From the NCBI GenBank assembly GCA_026225395.1, contig JAMFSR010000017.1:1-64000 (forward strand): a DNA stretch of 64,000 bases, written 5' to 3'. Shown here one piece after another: positions 1,346-8,800 of this stretch (the stretch's first letter is position 1; every line of letters starts with the position of its first letter). The translations under genes and the position numbers were made by a program. Below the pieces are notes generated by a model, which did no database searches, was not told where the DNA came from, and saw only the letters and a program-made list of their open reading frames with translations. The stretch is from Granulicella sapmiensis (GTDB lineage: Bacteria; Acidobacteriota; Terriglobia; Terriglobales; Acidobacteriaceae).

Positions 1346-1412
1346 CTTCTCTTGGTTACCAGAAACAATAACTTCTATCGAAGATCACCGTCGAGCTATA
1401 AGATTCCATGGA

Positions 1413-2288
1413 ATGTTGACTAACACCGAACGTCTCCGCCTATTGGCAAGACTTTTTACCCGCCCCGTTTTTAGCTCACTCGCCCAACGTGGAAAGTGGC
1501 AGCATTCGCTTGCATTTTTGAAAAACTATGGCCTTTTGGAGTCGTCGCGACCAAGGCCTTTGTCTCTCCTTTTCGATCAAGCGTGGGAGGAGATCAAAAT
1601 CGGCTACAGAAACGAATATGTCTATAAGAATGAAATAGCAAATCGAATTCTATTCGGTAGGCATAGGCCGCATACGGCATCGTTTCATGTAGAAATGCCT
1701 ATCGGAAATTCGATTGTTGATGTCGCCGTTTTCAACGGCACCTCCACTGCTTATGAAGTGAAAACTGAATATGATTCAGCTCGCAGACTTGAAACTCAAA
1801 CCGCCGATTACCTCAAAGCTTTCGAGCATGTTTATGTCGTCGCACATCCGTCCCTCGCCCAAGATTACTGTGGTGTGGTGAGAGAAGGAGTCGGAGTTAT
1901 GGCTCTTTCCCAGCGCGGCTCTCTGGCCACGATTAAAAAAGCAAAGTCGAATATACAAGCTCTTCACCACCGAACAATTTTTAGATGTCTACGGCGCGAG
2001 GAGTATGTGTCAATCATTCGCGAGGCATCGGGTCAAACCATTGATCTACCTAATGGTCTTATAGCGGATGAGTGCAATCGTGTGTTTGGGACTCTGGAAA
2101 TAGACTTGGCTCATTCTCTATATGTCAAAGCGTTGCGTGAACGAAAAATTGGCTTGCAAAACGCGAACTTTATGTCTACTCTTCCGACTAGCCTTCGAGC
2201 AGTTGGATACGCTACGCCATTATCCGAACGGCAACGTTCTGCGATAACGGATGTCTTGAATGAGTGTGTTCCAGTAGCTTTGGCGTAG
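1413..2288 (+). CDS. sce7726-family protein, PD-(D/E)XK nuclease-like
   Basis: A 291-residue soluble protein that I recognise as resembling the sce7726 family. Residues about 100-117 read IVDVAVFNG followed by YEVKT: an Asp (about 103) and a Glu-x-Lys (about 115-117) spaced as in PD-(D/E)XK nucleases, with Glu74 a possible additional ligand; the DNA-cleavage idea is inferred from this motif. It begins 68 bp after gyrA with only a weak ribosome site, and is followed after 41 bp by the sce7725-like gene and then the coiled-coil gene, all in one direction. The cassette is visibly richer in A and T and uses A/T-ending codons, unlike gyrA and the genes after 5.2 kb, which suggests transfer. A host-defence role is plausible but unproven. 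Confidence 0.75.
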   Translation: MLTNTERLRLLARLFTRPVFSSLAQRGKWQHSLAFLKNYGLLESSRPRPLSLLFDQAWEEIKIGYRNEYVYKNEIANRILFGRHRPHTASFHVEMPIGNSIVDVAVFNGTSTAYEVKTEYDSARRLETQTADYLKAFEHVYVVAHPSLAQDYCGVVREGVGVMALSQRGSLATIKKAKSNIQALHHRTIFRCLRREEYVSIIREASGQTIDLPNGLIADECNRVFGTLEIDLAHSLYVKALRERKIGLQNANFMSTLPTSLRAVGYATPLSERQRSAITDVLNECVPVALA

Positions 2289-2329
2289 GTCGGGCCTGAT
2301 ATCAAGAATCAGGAAAGTTGGCCGTCTCA

Positions 2330-3298
2330 ATGTATTTTCCGTATCTTTATGCCCGCCGTGCTGAGTTGCTGGCGCTGAGAGACATTTCAGAAGAGCTAGA
2401 CGTTCGCGACACAGTCATTCCCATTTTGGAGCCCGTGAAGGCTGATTCTAAAGATCTCATTCGCTGCTTAGAGGTTTTAGGAGAAGCATCTATCCGAACG
2501 CTTGTAATAACCAATCCGAAACAAGGCGACTTCAAGGCTAAAACGACTAGACCTGCCACGCTCGTTCCTCCCTGGCGGTCATCTCTTTCCGAGTCATTTT
2601 CGGAGTACCCAAGTAATATCCCAGCTTTTGTCTGCAGAGCCGAAACGCGGTTTGTTGAGATCACATCTTTCCTCGCCAGATATCCAAATAGAGATGTAGC
2701 CCTTGTCTATTGGAGTCCGCGTTTTAGTGATGCCGAAATCCAATCCCTTATCGCCGAACGACGTATTCGATTTCATGTAAATCTTCACAAGAAACTATCT
2801 ACTGCCCAGCGGGCACTTCTTCCCATCGCTAAGGCCGTGGATGTCGTGGATGGCTTTAATGCTCAACTCAGAAATGCTGACTATGGCGAACCTGAGCTAC
2901 TAAGCGACGCTCATCTGACTTATAGTGCAACATCAATCGGCTACGGCGACTATTCAGTAATTGGGGCAAAATTTAGCGACTCTGGTGGACCAGCTCACGC
3001 TGTTGCAATCCATGCCGTTTATAAGGATGCGGCGACAGGAATTGTGTGGGTCCAACATTTCGTTTCGGATGATACCGACATAAACGTCGGAAGCACCGCG
3101 GGAAAATATCTTCAGGCAGCGACCAAGCTCGTGAGGGCTGCAACGCGCCGTAGAAGAGAGTTTGGGGATAATCAAGCGCTGCGTGGCTACGCCGAAGATG
3201 TAGCCACTAATAACAATCCTGGCTTGATGACAAACAAGCGTCGTCAAATTCATCATCACGTGGCATTGAACCACTCGATTCTAAGAGGCACCGCTTAG
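2330..3298 (+). CDS. sce7725-family protein
   Basis: A 322-residue protein starting MYFPYLYARR and followed by an ALRDI-type segment and IPILEPVK, the hallmark beginning of the sce7725 family as I remember it; these are regularly encoded next to sce7726 proteins, as here. The frame is open four codons further up to a TTG at 2318, but that codon touches the AGGAAAG ribosome site (2311-2317), so the ATG at 2330, which also matches the family start, is preferred. No signal peptide or membrane segment is visible and I recognise no catalytic motif. The stop codon (3296-3298) directly abuts the ATG of the next gene, implying one transcript and coupled translation. Its biochemical role is unknown; sharing a cassette with a nuclease-like partner suggests a joint function. 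Confidence 0.75.
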   Translation: MYFPYLYARRAELLALRDISEELDVRDTVIPILEPVKADSKDLIRCLEVLGEASIRTLVITNPKQGDFKAKTTRPATLVPPWRSSLSESFSEYPSNIPAFVCRAETRFVEITSFLARYPNRDVALVYWSPRFSDAEIQSLIAERRIRFHVNLHKKLSTAQRALLPIAKAVDVVDGFNAQLRNADYGEPELLSDAHLTYSATSIGYGDYSVIGAKFSDSGGPAHAVAIHAVYKDAATGIVWVQHFVSDDTDINVGSTAGKYLQAATKLVRAATRRRREFGDNQALRGYAEDVATNNNPGLMTNKRRQIHHHVALNHSILRGTA

Positions 3299-4000
3299 AT
3301 GCCGTCTGAAACAACGCTGATAAGATTTCACATTGCAGGCCGCTGGTCTGCAGATGATTTTTCGCATTTACTGAGGACATCTAACGATATATACAACTTG
3401 TCAGTGGTCCTCTCTGCAGATCTACTTCGAGATCCAATCCTTCGAAATGAGATGTTCCCGATGGACCGAAGAACAGTTAGACGTTTGGCCGCCACGCGTG
3501 TCGATCGACCCTGGATGGACGTTGCAAAAATTTCATTTGCATCTCCTGGCTTCATTGATCTCGCAGGATTAGATACTGTTGCGGGGCACATCAAAGATTT
3601 TGCTCTAGGTTTATTGGATCGATATCAAGATAGACCCTTTCGTCGCCTAGAACTTCAAGAGAAGCTAAGAATCGCTGATAGAGCTCGTTTTGAAGATGAG
3701 AGCACCCGCAACGAAAAGCTCGCACTATTTCGTCATGGCGAGGTGATGAGAGCGCTAGAAATCACAGAACAACGACTCAAACTGCAGAGAAGAGTTCTTA
3801 AGAACAAAGAACTTCACTTAAGAAACCTTGATAGGGAAAGTGATTTCGCACTGAAGATGAGCAAGATGAGTAAAGAAAATGATCTAACAGTCGAGCAGAC
3901 CGAAAAGCTTGGCACCTGGATAGACAGTCGGATAGCCCCTGTGCGCGAGCTAGCTGAACTAAAGCAACTCGTTGATGTCCAAGTTCTATCGGAGCAATAG
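3299..4000 (+). CDS. hypothetical protein with C-terminal coiled coil, third gene of sce7726/sce7725 cassette
   Basis: A 233-residue soluble protein not recognised as a known family. The N-terminal half (about 1-110) looks globular and ends with a SPGFIDLAGL segment followed by a helix; this Ser-Pro-Gly/Asp-Leu-Ala-Gly pattern occurs in various bacterial proteins of unknown function. Residues about 115-210 are charged and helical (repeated Glu, Lys, Arg and Leu with heptad spacing), probably a coiled coil. The ATG follows the previous stop codon with no gap, so the protein is presumably made together with the sce7725-like protein. Composition is AT-rich like its two partners. It may be a structural or sensing partner of the pair, but nothing in the sequence fixes a function. 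Confidence 0.7.
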   Translation: MPSETTLIRFHIAGRWSADDFSHLLRTSNDIYNLSVVLSADLLRDPILRNEMFPMDRRTVRRLAATRVDRPWMDVAKISFASPGFIDLAGLDTVAGHIKDFALGLLDRYQDRPFRRLELQEKLRIADRARFEDESTRNEKLALFRHGEVMRALEITEQRLKLQRRVLKNKELHLRNLDRESDFALKMSKMSKENDLTVEQTEKLGTWIDSRIAPVRELAELKQLVDVQVLSEQ

Positions 4001-4095
4001 AAAGAGGTCATCCAGTCGGTTGCCCCACATCTCGCTTTGAAGACATGGGTTTTCGCGAGCTATCTCAGCATCGTTTTATGCCAACCTTGAACCGG

Positions 4096-4830
4096 CTACG
4101 GCGCGACTTGCTTCACGAATACTTGCGCCGCATCTGCAAGATCGAGTAGCACCCCATCACCTTGAAGCGGCTCGTAATCGTCAGCAAGGGTTCGCCGGTA
4201 TGAAGCATCAATCAAATAGATAGGCTTGTGTGGCTCTTCATCTCGCACAATCGCAAACTGACTGAGTTGTCCGGCATAAAAACCGAGCTGATCCTTCATT
4301 TCTAACTCAATAAATACCGTATATTCAGTGCCGTCCTCAGCAACGTTCGCAGAAAGAATCTCGTAGATGATCGGCTTTTCGCCGAGTAGACCTGTGATGC
4401 CTAGCTTTTGAAGCCAAACAGCACGCCGGAGTGCAAATGTCGTAATAGGTGCCTTACCGCGCCACATGCCATAGGCCAACCCAAGCCAGTGGCTTACAGC
4501 AAAGGATAAGAAGACATAGCAAGTTCCAAGCGCGGCCGCCTCAGTGGGATATGAGGCGGCCCAACCCTTAACCGGCCAAGAATCAATCATGTGAAAAAAG
4601 TAAAGTGGCTGGAAACAGTGACACAACCCAAGCGCCAGCAGGATGAAACTTCCGAAAAGAATCAACAATCCATGCGTAGAAACGCCAAGCGCGACTAACT
4701 CGCCGAGCTCAGCACTTGCTCCTTGTTCTACGAAAGATCGGGGGAAAACAAGATTTCGGCTTCTCTGAGCAAAGAGACCGGGAATGATACAAAGAATCGC
4801 GAGAAGAACCGTTGAAACATCGATCTTCAA
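4096..4830 (-). CDS. DUF6338-like membrane protein
   Basis: A 244-residue protein with an N-terminal membrane helix (about 8-22), further hydrophobic segments near 50-75 and 100-118, and a soluble C-terminal domain (about 140-244). The opening MKIDVSTVLLAILCIIPG and overall plan match DUF6338 proteins as I recall them; the function of that family is unknown. It begins 11 bp after the small gene 4842-5045 on the same strand, so the two probably form an operon. It converges on the sce7726/sce7725 cassette with a gap of about 95 bp. Composition is intermediate between the AT-rich cassette and the host-like genes, so it may belong to the same acquired block. Confidence 0.7.
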   Translation of the reverse strand: MKIDVSTVLLAILCIIPGLFAQRSRNLVFPRSFVEQGASAELGELVALGVSTHGLLILFGSFILLALGLCHCFQPLYFFHMIDSWPVKGWAASYPTEAAALGTCYVFLSFAVSHWLGLAYGMWRGKAPITTFALRRAVWLQKLGITGLLGEKPIIYEILSANVAEDGTEYTVFIELEMKDQLGFYAGQLSQFAIVRDEEPHKPIYLIDASYRRTLADDYEPLQGDGVLLDLADAAQVFVKQVAP

Positions 4831-4841
4831 CGATTGGCCCC

Positions 4842-5045
4842 TTAGCGGCTATTGGTTGATCTATCGATAGAAGAAGATGTTGAGGTAGACGGCTGTTGCG
4901 TGCCACTCTCGCGTCTCGGAGTCACAACGAACGGATTCGGAGCACCGGGCACAGTCCTGAGCGTATTTAGGCTCTTAGCCAAGTCATTGTTCTGACCGAG
5001 CCGACAAACTGCATCTTGCGCAATTGCTCTATTACTGATTGGCAT
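4842..5045 (-). CDS. small hypothetical protein (67 aa)
   Basis: A 67-residue protein starting MPISNRAIAQDAV, with a Ser/Thr-rich tail. An open frame extends further upstream to 5195, but the ATG at 5043-5045 is preferred because it is preceded by a strong ribosome site (GAGGTGA, 5-nt spacer). It lies 11 bp upstream of the DUF6338-like gene and is probably co-transcribed with it. No family is recognised and no signal or membrane segment is evident. Confidence 0.5.
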   Translation of the reverse strand: MPISNRAIAQDAVCRLGQNNDLAKSLNTLRTVPGAPNPFVVTPRRESGTQQPSTSTSSSIDRSTNSR

Positions 5046-5231
5046 GTCGGTCACCTCGTCTTCATTATAGCTCTGTCGCTGGGTACCACACTCTGCTGCA
5101 GGCCCAAGCAAAGGCCTGACCGCAGCGCCTGAACTGCCTTCCTCTCCCCGCCACGGATCACCCGCACAACCAATACATCCCCACCCACCCCGCACTCATC
5201 TCTTTAACAGAACCCGAAAGAGGAAGCACGC

Positions 5232-5522
5232 ATGTCCAAACCGAACGGCAGAAAACCCCTCATCACCCCCGACCCCGCCAACCCCATCATCGCCACCGCC
5301 GTACCCATCGACAACCACACCGTCGATCCCGACTACGACCGCCACAAGGGCCCCCACATTAAGTCGCCCCACGACCCAAAAGAGATCAATCCAAAAATGG
5401 CATCCGACATCGCCTACTGGTCCAAAGAATTTAACGTCACCGGCGACCAGCTACACGAAGCCATCCGCGTCCACGGAACCCACGTCGAAAAAATCCGTGC
5501 CGCTCTCCACAAACCCGCCTAA
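5232..5522 (+). CDS. DUF3606 domain-containing protein
   Basis: A 96-residue protein whose C-terminal half (about 55-95) contains IN-x8-YW-x3-FNVT, then L-x2-AI and HG with a terminal R-x2-L, the pattern of DUF3606. This short all-helical domain is common in soil bacteria and of unknown function. The N-terminal half is Pro/Asp-rich and probably disordered. The start is supported by AGAGG 8 nt upstream. It is divergent from the 4842-5045 gene, so 5046-5231 should hold both promoters. Two strong hairpins follow the gene at 5543-5600. Confidence 0.75.
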   Translation: MSKPNGRKPLITPDPANPIIATAVPIDNHTVDPDYDRHKGPHIKSPHDPKEINPKMASDIAYWSKEFNVTGDQLHEAIRVHGTHVEKIRAALHKPA

Positions 5523-5805: not shown

Positions 5806-8800
5806 ATGAAGTACCCAGCACGACTTGCCCTTGTTCTCTTTGCCCTACTATTCGCCAGCACGCTCCACGCCCAATCCACCTTTGGCAGCATCCGCGGCAC
5901 AGCCGTAGACTCCACCGGAGCCTCCGTCCCCGGATCCACCGCCACCCTCCGCTCGGTCGACCAAAGCACCACCCGCACCGCCACAACGGACACCTCCGGC
6001 GCCTTTCTCTTCGAAAACCTAAAACCCGGCAAGTACACCATCGCCGTCGCGCACAGCGGTTTCTCCACCACCAACCTCAACGGCATTGCGCTCGACGCCC
6101 GCCAGGACCTCCGCGTCAACGTCACCCTCACCATCTCGGCCGATAACACCACCGTCGAGGTCAACGCCGGTCCCGACCAGATCGACACCGAAGACGCCGC
6201 CATCTCCGACTCCAAGAACAACCAGCTCATTACCCAGCTCCCCCTCAACAACCGCGCCAGCACCACCAGCCCCCTCGGCTCCCTCGCCCTATCCGCCAAC
6301 GTCCAGCAGGATTCCAATGGCTACATAGCCCTGGGCGGCGCCAGCTCCTCGATGATCAACTTCTCAGTCGACGGCATATCCACGGCCAACGTCCGCCAGA
6401 ACGGCGCGCTGCAGGATGCGTATCCTTCGCAGGAAGGCATCGCGTCGGTCAAGGTCACGGCGTTCAACAACTCCGCTGAGTTCTCGCAGGTCGGCGATGT
6501 CACCTTCACCACGCGTAGCGGAGGCAACAAGATCCACGGCAGCCTCTTCGAGTACTTCCAGAACGATGTGCTCGATGCTGACCCTTACGGCTTCTCCGGC
6601 AAAGCTCCCAAGCACTTCAACACCTTCGGCGGCTCACTCTCCGGATCGGTCACGGTGCCGCATGTCTATAACGGCCGCGACAAGACATTCTTCTTCCTCG
6701 ACTACGAGGGCAATCGTCGCGCTACGGCGACGCTGCAGCAGTTCCTTGTGCCTTCCACGCTCGATCGCACCGGCAACCTCACAGACATCGGTGGCCCCAT
6801 CATCCCGACGTCGCAGATCAGCCCGACAGCGCTCGCGCTGCTTACGTATCTGCCGCAGCCGAATGTCTCCGGGCAATCGAGCTACAACTATGAAAACTTC
6901 CAGCCCACACCTTCGCATACGGATGGCGTAGATCTTCGTGTCGATCAAATTATCGGTTCGCGCAACTCGCTGTATGCGCGCTTCAGCCGCAAGAACATCA
7001 GCTCCAGCTATGCCAATCCGTTCCTGCCGGATGATGTCGATAGCATTCACAACCGCAGCTTGCTTGTATCCGACACTTTCACCATCACGCCGCGTTTGCT
7101 CAATGAAGCACGATACGGCTTCACGAATGTAACGACGAGCGTCAACTTCCCGATCCAGGGATCGACTGCACTTTCGCAGCTTGACCTGACCGGCGTCGAC
7201 ATCAGCCAGCATCCACTGACACACGCGTTCCCTACATTCAACTTCAACGCGGGTACCGGTTTCACGGCCATCGGTCGCGATAAAGCGGGCATCACGCAGT
7301 CGCGCACCACGCAGATCTCCGACAATGTGACGTACACGCTGGGCAAGCACACACTCAAGGCCGGCATCGATGTTCGCCGCGTGCGTTACTTCGATCTCGA
7401 AAGCTTTGCGCCTGAGTTCGGTTCGGATGATTTTGGCGACTTCAACTTCCAGCCGACGTTTACCGGCAACTCGTTCGGCGACTTCCTTGTCGGCGAACCC
7501 ACCACGCTCTACTTCGCTGTCTCCAGCCCTGACGTTGGCGGAACGGCGACGCAGTACAGCTTCTTCGCACAGGATGAGTTCCAGCTCAACTCGCGGTTCA
7601 CCTTGAGCTATGGTCTTCGGTGGCAGGTGCTGCCGTCGTTCAGTGAAGACGGCGGCAACCTCGCCAACTTCGACCAGAGCAATAACTCCATCGTTGTTCC
7701 CGATAACCTTGCGGCGTACCTCACGCAGCAGAACATCGTCTCGTCGAATCTCGCGTTCCAGCAGTCGTTCAATGCGTGCAGCCTCAATCAAGGTGGTCCA
7801 TGCACGAAGTACATCACGGCATCGCAGGATGGCTTGCCCGAAGGTCTTCGTCAGACCTACAAAGGCGACTTCCAGCCGCGTGTTGCCTTCGCCTATCGCC
7901 CGTTCAATGATACGAAGACTGTTGTCCGCGGCGGCTTCGGCATCTATACGATGACCAACCTTGGACCGCTGTCGTTCAACAATAGTGGTAACCCTACGTC
8001 GAACCTGCATGTGTACTCGAACTCCGGCACACAGGCTGCGCCGCTGATCAAGTTCCCAAACACAGCGCCTGCTTCTGTTGGTGTCGTCTATGGTGGGGGT
8101 GGTCTTGATCAGGGTGTCGACCCGCACTATCGCGATCCGCAGTCGAACCAGTGGTCGCTTACGTTGGAGCGTCAGTTGAGCGCGAACAACTCACTGCGTG
8201 CCAGCTATGTTGGCATGCATACGTATCGCCTCAGCGTCACTGAAGACCTCAATCAGATTCCAGCAAGCACGACGCCGTATGATACCGGGGCCACTGCCGG
8301 CACGTATGTTGATACGCGCGCTCCTTACCAGAACTGGACGACGCTCTACAGTACCTTCAACGCGGGCAAGGCCAACTATAGTGCATTCGAGTTGGAGGCT
8401 ACGCACCGTATGATTCATGGCCTTTATTACGACGCGAACTACACGCTCGCGAAAAATCAGGCTGACAACCAGGGTGATACGCCCAGCGGCTTTGCCGGTG
8501 AGGTTAACTACGGAATTCCAATCGCAGACCGCTTCCACATCAATAACGATTACGGCAATCAGGAAGGCACTCGCCGTCACCGCGTGCTGCTTACGGGTGT
8601 GTATCAACTTCCCTTTGGCGCGGGCCGTACGTTTGTCAACCACAGTCGCCTACTCAATAACGTGATCGGCAACTGGGACATCAACACGATCACGCTGCTT
8701 GAAACCGGCCCGTGGCTTACGCCAAGCATCAGCCCCAGCCTTGACCAGTCGAATACCAATGTCGTGAATCGTGGCGCCACGGCTCGCCCCGATGTTGTCT

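Follow-up and report, generated by a model that had tools for sequence, protein, structure and literature searches.

Three genes behind gyrA form an operon-like cassette

We analysed a 64,000-nucleotide stretch of Granulicella sapmiensis DNA (GenBank assembly GCA_026225395.1, contig JAMFSR010000017.1, positions 1 to 64,000 of the forward strand; hereafter the window), with attention to a three-gene cassette near its left end that we tentatively interpret as a phage-defence module. The window opens inside the 3' part of gyrA (named from its sequence and not from a family search), the frame of which ends at 1345. Three intact open reading frames (ORFs) follow on the + strand: gene 1 (1413-2288, 291 amino acids), gene 2 (2330-3298, 322 amino acids) and gene 3 (3299-4000, 233 amino acids). 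A first-pass annotation, made from the letters alone, had noticed three closely spaced genes of the same direction, and this description stands: the layout is operon-like, with the ATG of gene 3 directly after the TAG of gene 2 and zero gap between them. The mechanical ORF call starts gene 2 at TTG 2318; its real start is likely ATG 2330, because the six aligned relatives from its family, sce7725, begin MY.P.

The trio lies in an AT-rich patch (1346-5050) that is delimited by its composition and by the point at which nucleotide homology to 12 genomes of the same genus stops. The GC content drops from 0.66 in gyrA to 0.45-0.51 in the patch and is 0.57 at 5001-5500, as expected from the earlier remark that the genes are AT-richer than both their flanks; at third codon positions it is 0.43, 0.44 and 0.41 in genes 1, 2 and 3, respectively. 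We presume that the patch between gyrA and the GC-richer DNA from ~5.0 kb is acquired DNA.

Gene 1 has the motif and the predicted fold of a PD-(D/E)XK nuclease

The family names proposed for the first two genes proved correct: gene 1 belongs to sce7726 (NF033832, 166.3 bits; cut-off, 70) and gene 2 to sce7725 (NF033831, 238 bits; cut-off, 60). For gene 1, we aligned 89 sce7726 proteins (alignment A3: the window's protein plus rows from loci L008-L112, from which short, split and duplicate rows were dropped). Residues E94, D103, E115, K117 and Q129, which include the Asp...Glu-x-Lys pattern picked out in the first-pass annotation, are invariant in 89/89 of these proteins, that of the window included, as are six more residues.

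The nuclease fold that had been suggested from this pattern is consistent with structure prediction. The AlphaFold2 model of gene 1 is of high confidence (predicted local distance difference test score, pLDDT, 94.4; predicted template modelling score, pTM, 0.91), and restriction-enzyme-like chains are among its best matches in the VIA structural ranking. The top entry is 3dnx, a protein of unknown function (Z 9.1; root-mean-square deviation, rmsd, 5.3; 141 residues aligned), followed by PaqCI, a restriction enzyme (Z 8.8, rmsd 3.4 over 130 residues), and by proteins of the XisH type (Z 6.8, rmsd 2.9 over 103 residues; Z 6.7, rmsd 2.8 over 104 residues); a repair endonuclease, McrC, Can2, SdaI and BamHI stand further down. 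These Z values are mostly middling, and we base the assignment on the structural matches combined with the invariant motif, which together support a PD-(D/E)XK nuclease fold. With a catalytic motif and a predicted nuclease fold, gene 1 has the two features by which we assign proteins to this superfamily.

Gene 2 is a predicted TIM barrel

An alignment of 88 sce7725 proteins (A4) was used to model gene 2, and a TIM barrel is confidently predicted (pLDDT 93.2, pTM 0.92): its VIA list consists of TIM-barrel proteins, the best being tryptophan synthase alpha (Z 11.3, rmsd 3.7, 199 aligned). No enzyme activity was read off this list, in which the TIM barrels are generic. The polar residues that are invariant in A4 (E34, N182, D207, H228, H243, S246, K259, K303 and H310) would fit a role in ligand binding or catalysis.

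Relation to gop-beta-cII of satellite P4 and to PD-lambda-2

The first-pass annotation mentioned that similar gene pairs are named in lists of phage-resistance systems. In agreement with this, the PADLOC model 'cll' matches gene 1 (6.6e-15) and all 89 of the aligned sce7726 proteins; 'cll' denotes cII of satellite P4, since P4 cII scores 375.9 bits on it. In the reverse direction, P4 cII matches the A3 profile with 95.7 bits (hhalign 99.4%), and the P4 record itself annotates cII as 'sce7726 family protein' and beta as 'beta family protein'. The P4 system gop-beta-cII is reported to protect E. coli from lambda and P1 (Rousset et al. 2022, PMC9122126), and gop to be toxic without beta (PMC9122126, citing Ghisotti et al. 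1990).

The relationship of gene 2 to beta is more distant. Aligned by hhalign, the sce7725 and beta-family profiles yield a probability of 79% and a score of 46.2 over 62 N-terminal columns, as compared with at most 18.1 for 20 column-shuffled controls and 26.0 for the reversed profile. Eight of the 88 sce7725 proteins match PF14350 (Beta_protein) at E<=0.01, the best at 8.9e-06; gene 2 itself reaches 16 bits, against a cut-off of 27, and has no PADLOC beta match. We conclude that the family of gene 2 may be remotely beta-like, as a divergent relative through its N-terminus alone. As for the third component, gene 3 has no PADLOC gop match and no blastp or hhalign similarity to Gop, and its maximal hydropathy of 1.05 (2.01 in Gop) leaves it without a Gop-like, transmembrane-type hydrophobic segment.

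The locus thus resembles gop-beta-cII in that it has three genes, a homologue of cII and a protein remotely like beta at its N-terminus, and in that relatives of both are found in mobile elements. It differs in layout, since gop and beta run together with cII convergent to them, whereas all three genes of the cassette share one strand. Gene 2 falls short of the PADLOC beta model and gene 3 of gop; for these two reasons we do not file the locus under gop-beta-cII, and by these comparisons it is not a member of that system, its cII component notwithstanding.

We examined 11 loci with beta homologues, four of them P4 or near-copies of it, and the eleventh (L163) holding only part of beta. An abutting convergent sce7726 gene stands beside beta in 10 of the 11. 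The upstream neighbours of the plasmid-borne beta homologues L157-L160 differ from one another (in L158, for example, they appear by eye to be a membrane protein and a charged-helix protein, with unlike proteins in L159 and L160). These differing neighbours hint at exchangeable effectors.

For a second defence system, PD-lambda-2, Vassallo et al. (2022, PMC9519451) describe the third component as 'related to a P4 phage antitoxin'. The PD-lambda-2_C models pick up P4 beta, and gene 2 itself reaches only 0.026 with them; among the 88 sce7725 proteins, the third-component models have weak matches to four. The likeness to PD-lambda-2 lies in this beta-related component; the difference is that none of the three genes studied here matched a HigB-like or Xre-peptidase family.

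The third gene of the relatives is usually a RES gene

The sce7725 profile found 174 loci in genomes, and our survey covers the best 80 of them, which are not all independent (L040 and L043 are from one strain). An sce7726 gene lies upstream of sce7725 in 78 of the 80 (the exceptions are L021 and L061), and in 76 a RES gene, or pieces of one, begins no more than 600 bases behind sce7725. The RES match is in pieces in L021, L042, L050 and L071, and is cut by the contig end in L011, L054 and L068. Among the 79 loci with downstream sequence, L008, L038 and L066 have no RES; the contig of L070 ends too early. The conservation of gene order, which the first-pass annotation had proposed to test, holds in part: the sce7726-sce7725 pair recurs, but its third partner is usually RES and not gene 3.

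RES also follows sce7725 in 19 of 26 viral loci (ten of the 19, L088-L096 and L109, are near-copies of one element); the seven without it are L097, L098, L103, L105 and, with a broken sce7725, L111-L113. Eleven plasmid records match, and among the five opened the trio is present in four (two rhizobial, one from Shinella, one from Moraxella); in the fifth, from Enterococcus faecium, sce7725 adjoins a different upstream gene and there is no RES. The rows of our tree span 17 phylum names, and RES is present in each, Acidobacteriota being represented by L164 and L165. Pfam assigns RES to all four third genes tested and places HEPN_RES_NTD1 above cut-off on one of them. In an alignment of 76 RES partners, from which rows below 300 amino acids and split or duplicate rows were dropped, four N-terminal cysteines (C6, C9, C30 and C33 in the numbering of L003) are invariant in 76/76; this CxxC...CxxC pattern is probably a zinc ribbon ahead of the RES domain. 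Our literature search found no system name for the sce7726-sce7725-RES trio. The window shares with this cassette its first two families, their order and their direction, but no RES domain gene directly follows sce7725 there: gene 3 occupies the RES slot.

The loci without RES are the basis for one alternative, namely that the pair alone is the functional unit, in which the nuclease and its TIM-barrel partner would cleave invading nucleic acid in a restriction-like manner and gene 3 would be an accessory or regulator. We consider this somewhat unlikely. It draws on three RES-less pairs among the 79 genome loci (L008, L038, L066) and on four of the viral ones (L097, L098, L103, L105), all seven of which are among the 89 aligned proteins that retain the motif. 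L103 and L105 are satellites of the P4 type, the alpha of which shares 85% and 84% identity, respectively, with that of P4, and in both the pair stands after alpha; in L103, the pair is immediately followed by a second copy of the alpha 3' end (7000-7116; 59% identity across 39 residues), as would be expected had the two genes entered as one unit. L103 offers only 877 bases of room. On the tree, the RES-less label (eight rows) amounts to five changes, four of them forced by well-supported branches.

Several considerations stand against the pair acting by itself. That RES follows in 76 of the 80 genome loci suggests that an effector is normally part of the system, and in P4 it is gop that is toxic (PMC9122126). 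Some RES-less cases are possibly incomplete or decayed. The RES-less rows also group together on the tree (none of 500 shuffles was as low), where several of them have long branches and an unsure placement; the tree program warned of long branches and unusual composition for a set of rows that includes the window and L008, which are joined on a long stem as a 100/100 clade.

Gene 3 is a candidate effector without detected relatives

Gene 3 belongs to no Pfam or NCBIfam family. Its homologues were sought with a single query, which remote relatives could escape. By tblastn, none was found in plasmids, phages or viral contigs; none was accepted in 297 genomes of its own phylum, none for its N-terminal 134 amino acids in 120 genomes of its family (a set that overlaps the former), none in 25 genomes carrying the sce7726-sce7725 pair or the RES trio, and none in three further phyla (299, 198 and 246 genomes). 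Five weak matches (E 0.001-0.0095; L115, L116, L117, L119 and L120) were put down to chance after tblastn alignment, which in the case of L119 yielded no alignment. A match to PADLOC PD-T4-10_B (E 0.014 over 36 residues) was too weak to consider, as were the PHROG and PDB matches, and an origin of gene 3 as a truncated RES was rejected (hhalign 0.2%). The first-pass annotation had staked its three-component module on gene 3 relatives occurring with the pair; because no gene 3 homologue was found with the pair, or elsewhere, this exact trio does not recur, as far as our searches reach.

The coiled coil that had been read into gene 3 held up only in part. Residues 110-200 are indeed charged (44%) and poor in Pro and Gly (two residues), but their hydrophobic heptad periodicity is no higher than that of shuffled versions, 1040 of 2000 of which reach it; the best-scoring of six stretches is 150-233, where 289 of 2000 shuffles do so.

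The operon layout and the equal base composition favour an acquisition of gene 3 together with the pair. On account of this shared layout and composition, and of its location in the position that RES holds in relatives, we regard gene 3 as a candidate effector and no more.

Gene 3 could instead be an unrelated passenger in a decaying cassette that has lost its RES and has no present function, a scenario to which we give little credence. It would account for the lack of gene 3 homologues in our searches and of a RES near the pair. The sole RES found in this assembly is short and lies on another contig (C39; a 157-codon frame with a 145-amino-acid ORF), where it follows a 152-amino-acid ORF with which it probably makes up an ordinary toxin-antitoxin pair. 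Against decay, all three frames of the cassette are intact, gene 1 keeps its catalytic residues, and the position of the gene 3 ATG directly after the gene 2 stop argues for a joint operon.

Relatives examined lie in mobile, defence-rich surroundings

Within the phylum, sce7725 is sparsely distributed. A first scan of genome contigs with gene 2 alone found no relative; sce7725 is present in 2 of 297 genomes of the phylum, the genome under study included, and, among 399 genomes of the class, in five, four of which exceed the family cut-off. The five class-level carriers are the genome under study, L164 and L165 (both with the RES trio), the L008 genome and L167 (a 72-amino-acid fragment). We read the locus as transferred because of this patchy occurrence and its AT-rich composition, both of which point to acquisition, in line with what had been proposed.

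A mobile and defence-rich setting had likewise been anticipated and is borne out in the relatives examined. With a Lelliottia query, and at the sensitivity that this affords, the RES trio turns up in 18 of the 5426 E. coli genomes. We opened three of the 18 contexts, 12 kb to each side; these islands share parts and are not three independent cases. Each has a relaxase gene along with integrase genes or their remnants. The first also carries caspase, TIR, cyclase and reverse transcriptase genes, the second KwaB-like, AbiE and BREX genes, and the third a KwaB-like gene. Judged by gene content, the three examined copies sit in mobilisable islands beside known defence genes. RES, sce7725 and sce7726 have also been described with an integrase and a relaxase in an integrative mobilisable element of Pseudomonas aeruginosa PA_HN002 (PMC9394441), and the pair is listed in a region of Leptospira Hardjo (PMC12457778); the available sections of these two reports do not term the pair a defence system.

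The same mobility would suit a function other than defence, such as maintenance of a mobile element (toxin-antitoxin, post-segregational killing) or DNA repair: the trio lies on plasmids, integrative elements and viral contigs, and known toxin-antitoxin pairs combine a RES toxin with a helix-turn-helix antitoxin (PMC9503650). We think this very improbable, given that the cII/beta relative is proven to act against phage (PMC9122126) and that the three examined E. coli copies lie among other defence genes.

A proposed restraint-and-release mechanism

We hypothesize that the locus is a horizontally acquired phage-defence module of the cII/beta abortive-infection type, the third slot of which holds gene 3, and we assign this interpretation a probability of roughly 0.45. 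The locus would probably work in a manner analogous to gop-beta-cII, with a nuclease-family protein and a TIM-barrel partner controlling an effector. Gene 1 (cII/sce7726) would be the PD-(D/E)XK nuclease-fold component, gene 2 (sce7725, a beta-like TIM barrel) a restraint or sensing partner, and gene 3 would fill the slot that in relatives carries a candidate effector: in most of them, a probable zinc ribbon plus RES NAD+ phosphorylase, and in P4 the toxin Gop, a small membrane protein. At rest, the third protein would be held inactive by genes 1 and 2. Phage infection would lift this restraint, possibly triggered by phage DNA or replication intermediates that the nuclease contacts, and the freed effector would halt the cell before the phage matures.

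Several observations weigh against this proposal. Gene 3 offers no detected homologue, no resemblance to RES or Gop and no Gop-like hydrophobic segment. L008, the nearest relative (53% identity in sce7725), carries the pair but lacks both RES and gene 3, and no RES was found in its genome, so a third gene may be dispensable. The second of the E. coli contexts has a frameshifted RES. The similarity between sce7725 and beta is confined to ~62 N-terminal residues; P4 beta by itself reaches an hhalign probability of 3.2% with the sce7725 profile, and this profile matched no ORF at E<=10 across the 11 beta loci. Foldseek returned nothing at E<=0.001 for the model of gene 1 or for that of gene 2. 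PD-lambda-2C is reported to be needed for defence and not for toxin neutralisation (PMC9519451), so a restraining role for gene 2 is not a given. Finally, our literature search found no phage experiment on any sce7726-sce7725 pair.

A bolder extension, which we hold to be rather doubtful, is that a large and as yet unnamed abortive-infection family is built on a shared chassis of sce7726/cII plus beta/sce7725, with swappable effectors: Gop, RES and, as a new class, gene 3. Through cII, two families across 17 phyla that have numbers for names are now linked to a proven defence system. If our proposal is correct, most sce7726-sce7725 loci would be NAD+-destroying defence systems with a swappable effector, and the mechanism of gop-beta-cII, which is left open in the relevant parts of PMC9122126, could be tested in many other versions; gene 3 is singled out as a candidate new effector.

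The gyrA 3' end as an insertion site, and neighbouring features

The first-pass annotation placed the cassette as an insertion next to gyrA. This is plausible at the left side: nucleotide homology to the 12 same-genus genomes ends within the final bases of gyrA (1303-1347), and in none of the 12 does the 1.3-1.5 kb that follows gyrA match the window between 1348 and 9000 (one short match of these genomes lies elsewhere, at 52.6 kb). The right boundary is putative. Other genomes also carry signs of activity at this site. In L131, a segment of ~115 bp that includes the gyrA 3' end recurs 818 bp further downstream (copies at 2582-2696 and 3400-3514 of the reverse complement), and the two copies flank an ORF that by eye resembles a PIN domain. 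G1164 (L144, L143) has a second gyrA 3' fragment on a separate contig, ~2.4 kb from a 569-amino-acid ORF in L143 that by eye resembles a serine recombinase. The gyrA 3' end thus looks like an insertion hot spot in the genus. A repeated gyrA 3' end that could serve as an insertion scar was absent from the 64 kb of the window, where the search gave short matches only (17-22 bases, best E 0.005).

Convergent to the trio, and inside the same AT-rich patch, a 244-amino-acid protein is encoded on the - strand (4096-4830). It is hydrophobic-looking and has a sub-threshold resemblance to DUF6338 (PF19865, 14.8 bits against a cut-off of 26.5); it probably lies outside the module.

Elsewhere in the assembly, contig C30 (L152) opens with the 5' part of a gyrA; positions 2-284 of this contig align to positions 19-301 of the window with only 80.6% identity over 283 bases. 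Two congeneric species may be mixed in this assembly, with the window's contig and C30 coming from different organisms.

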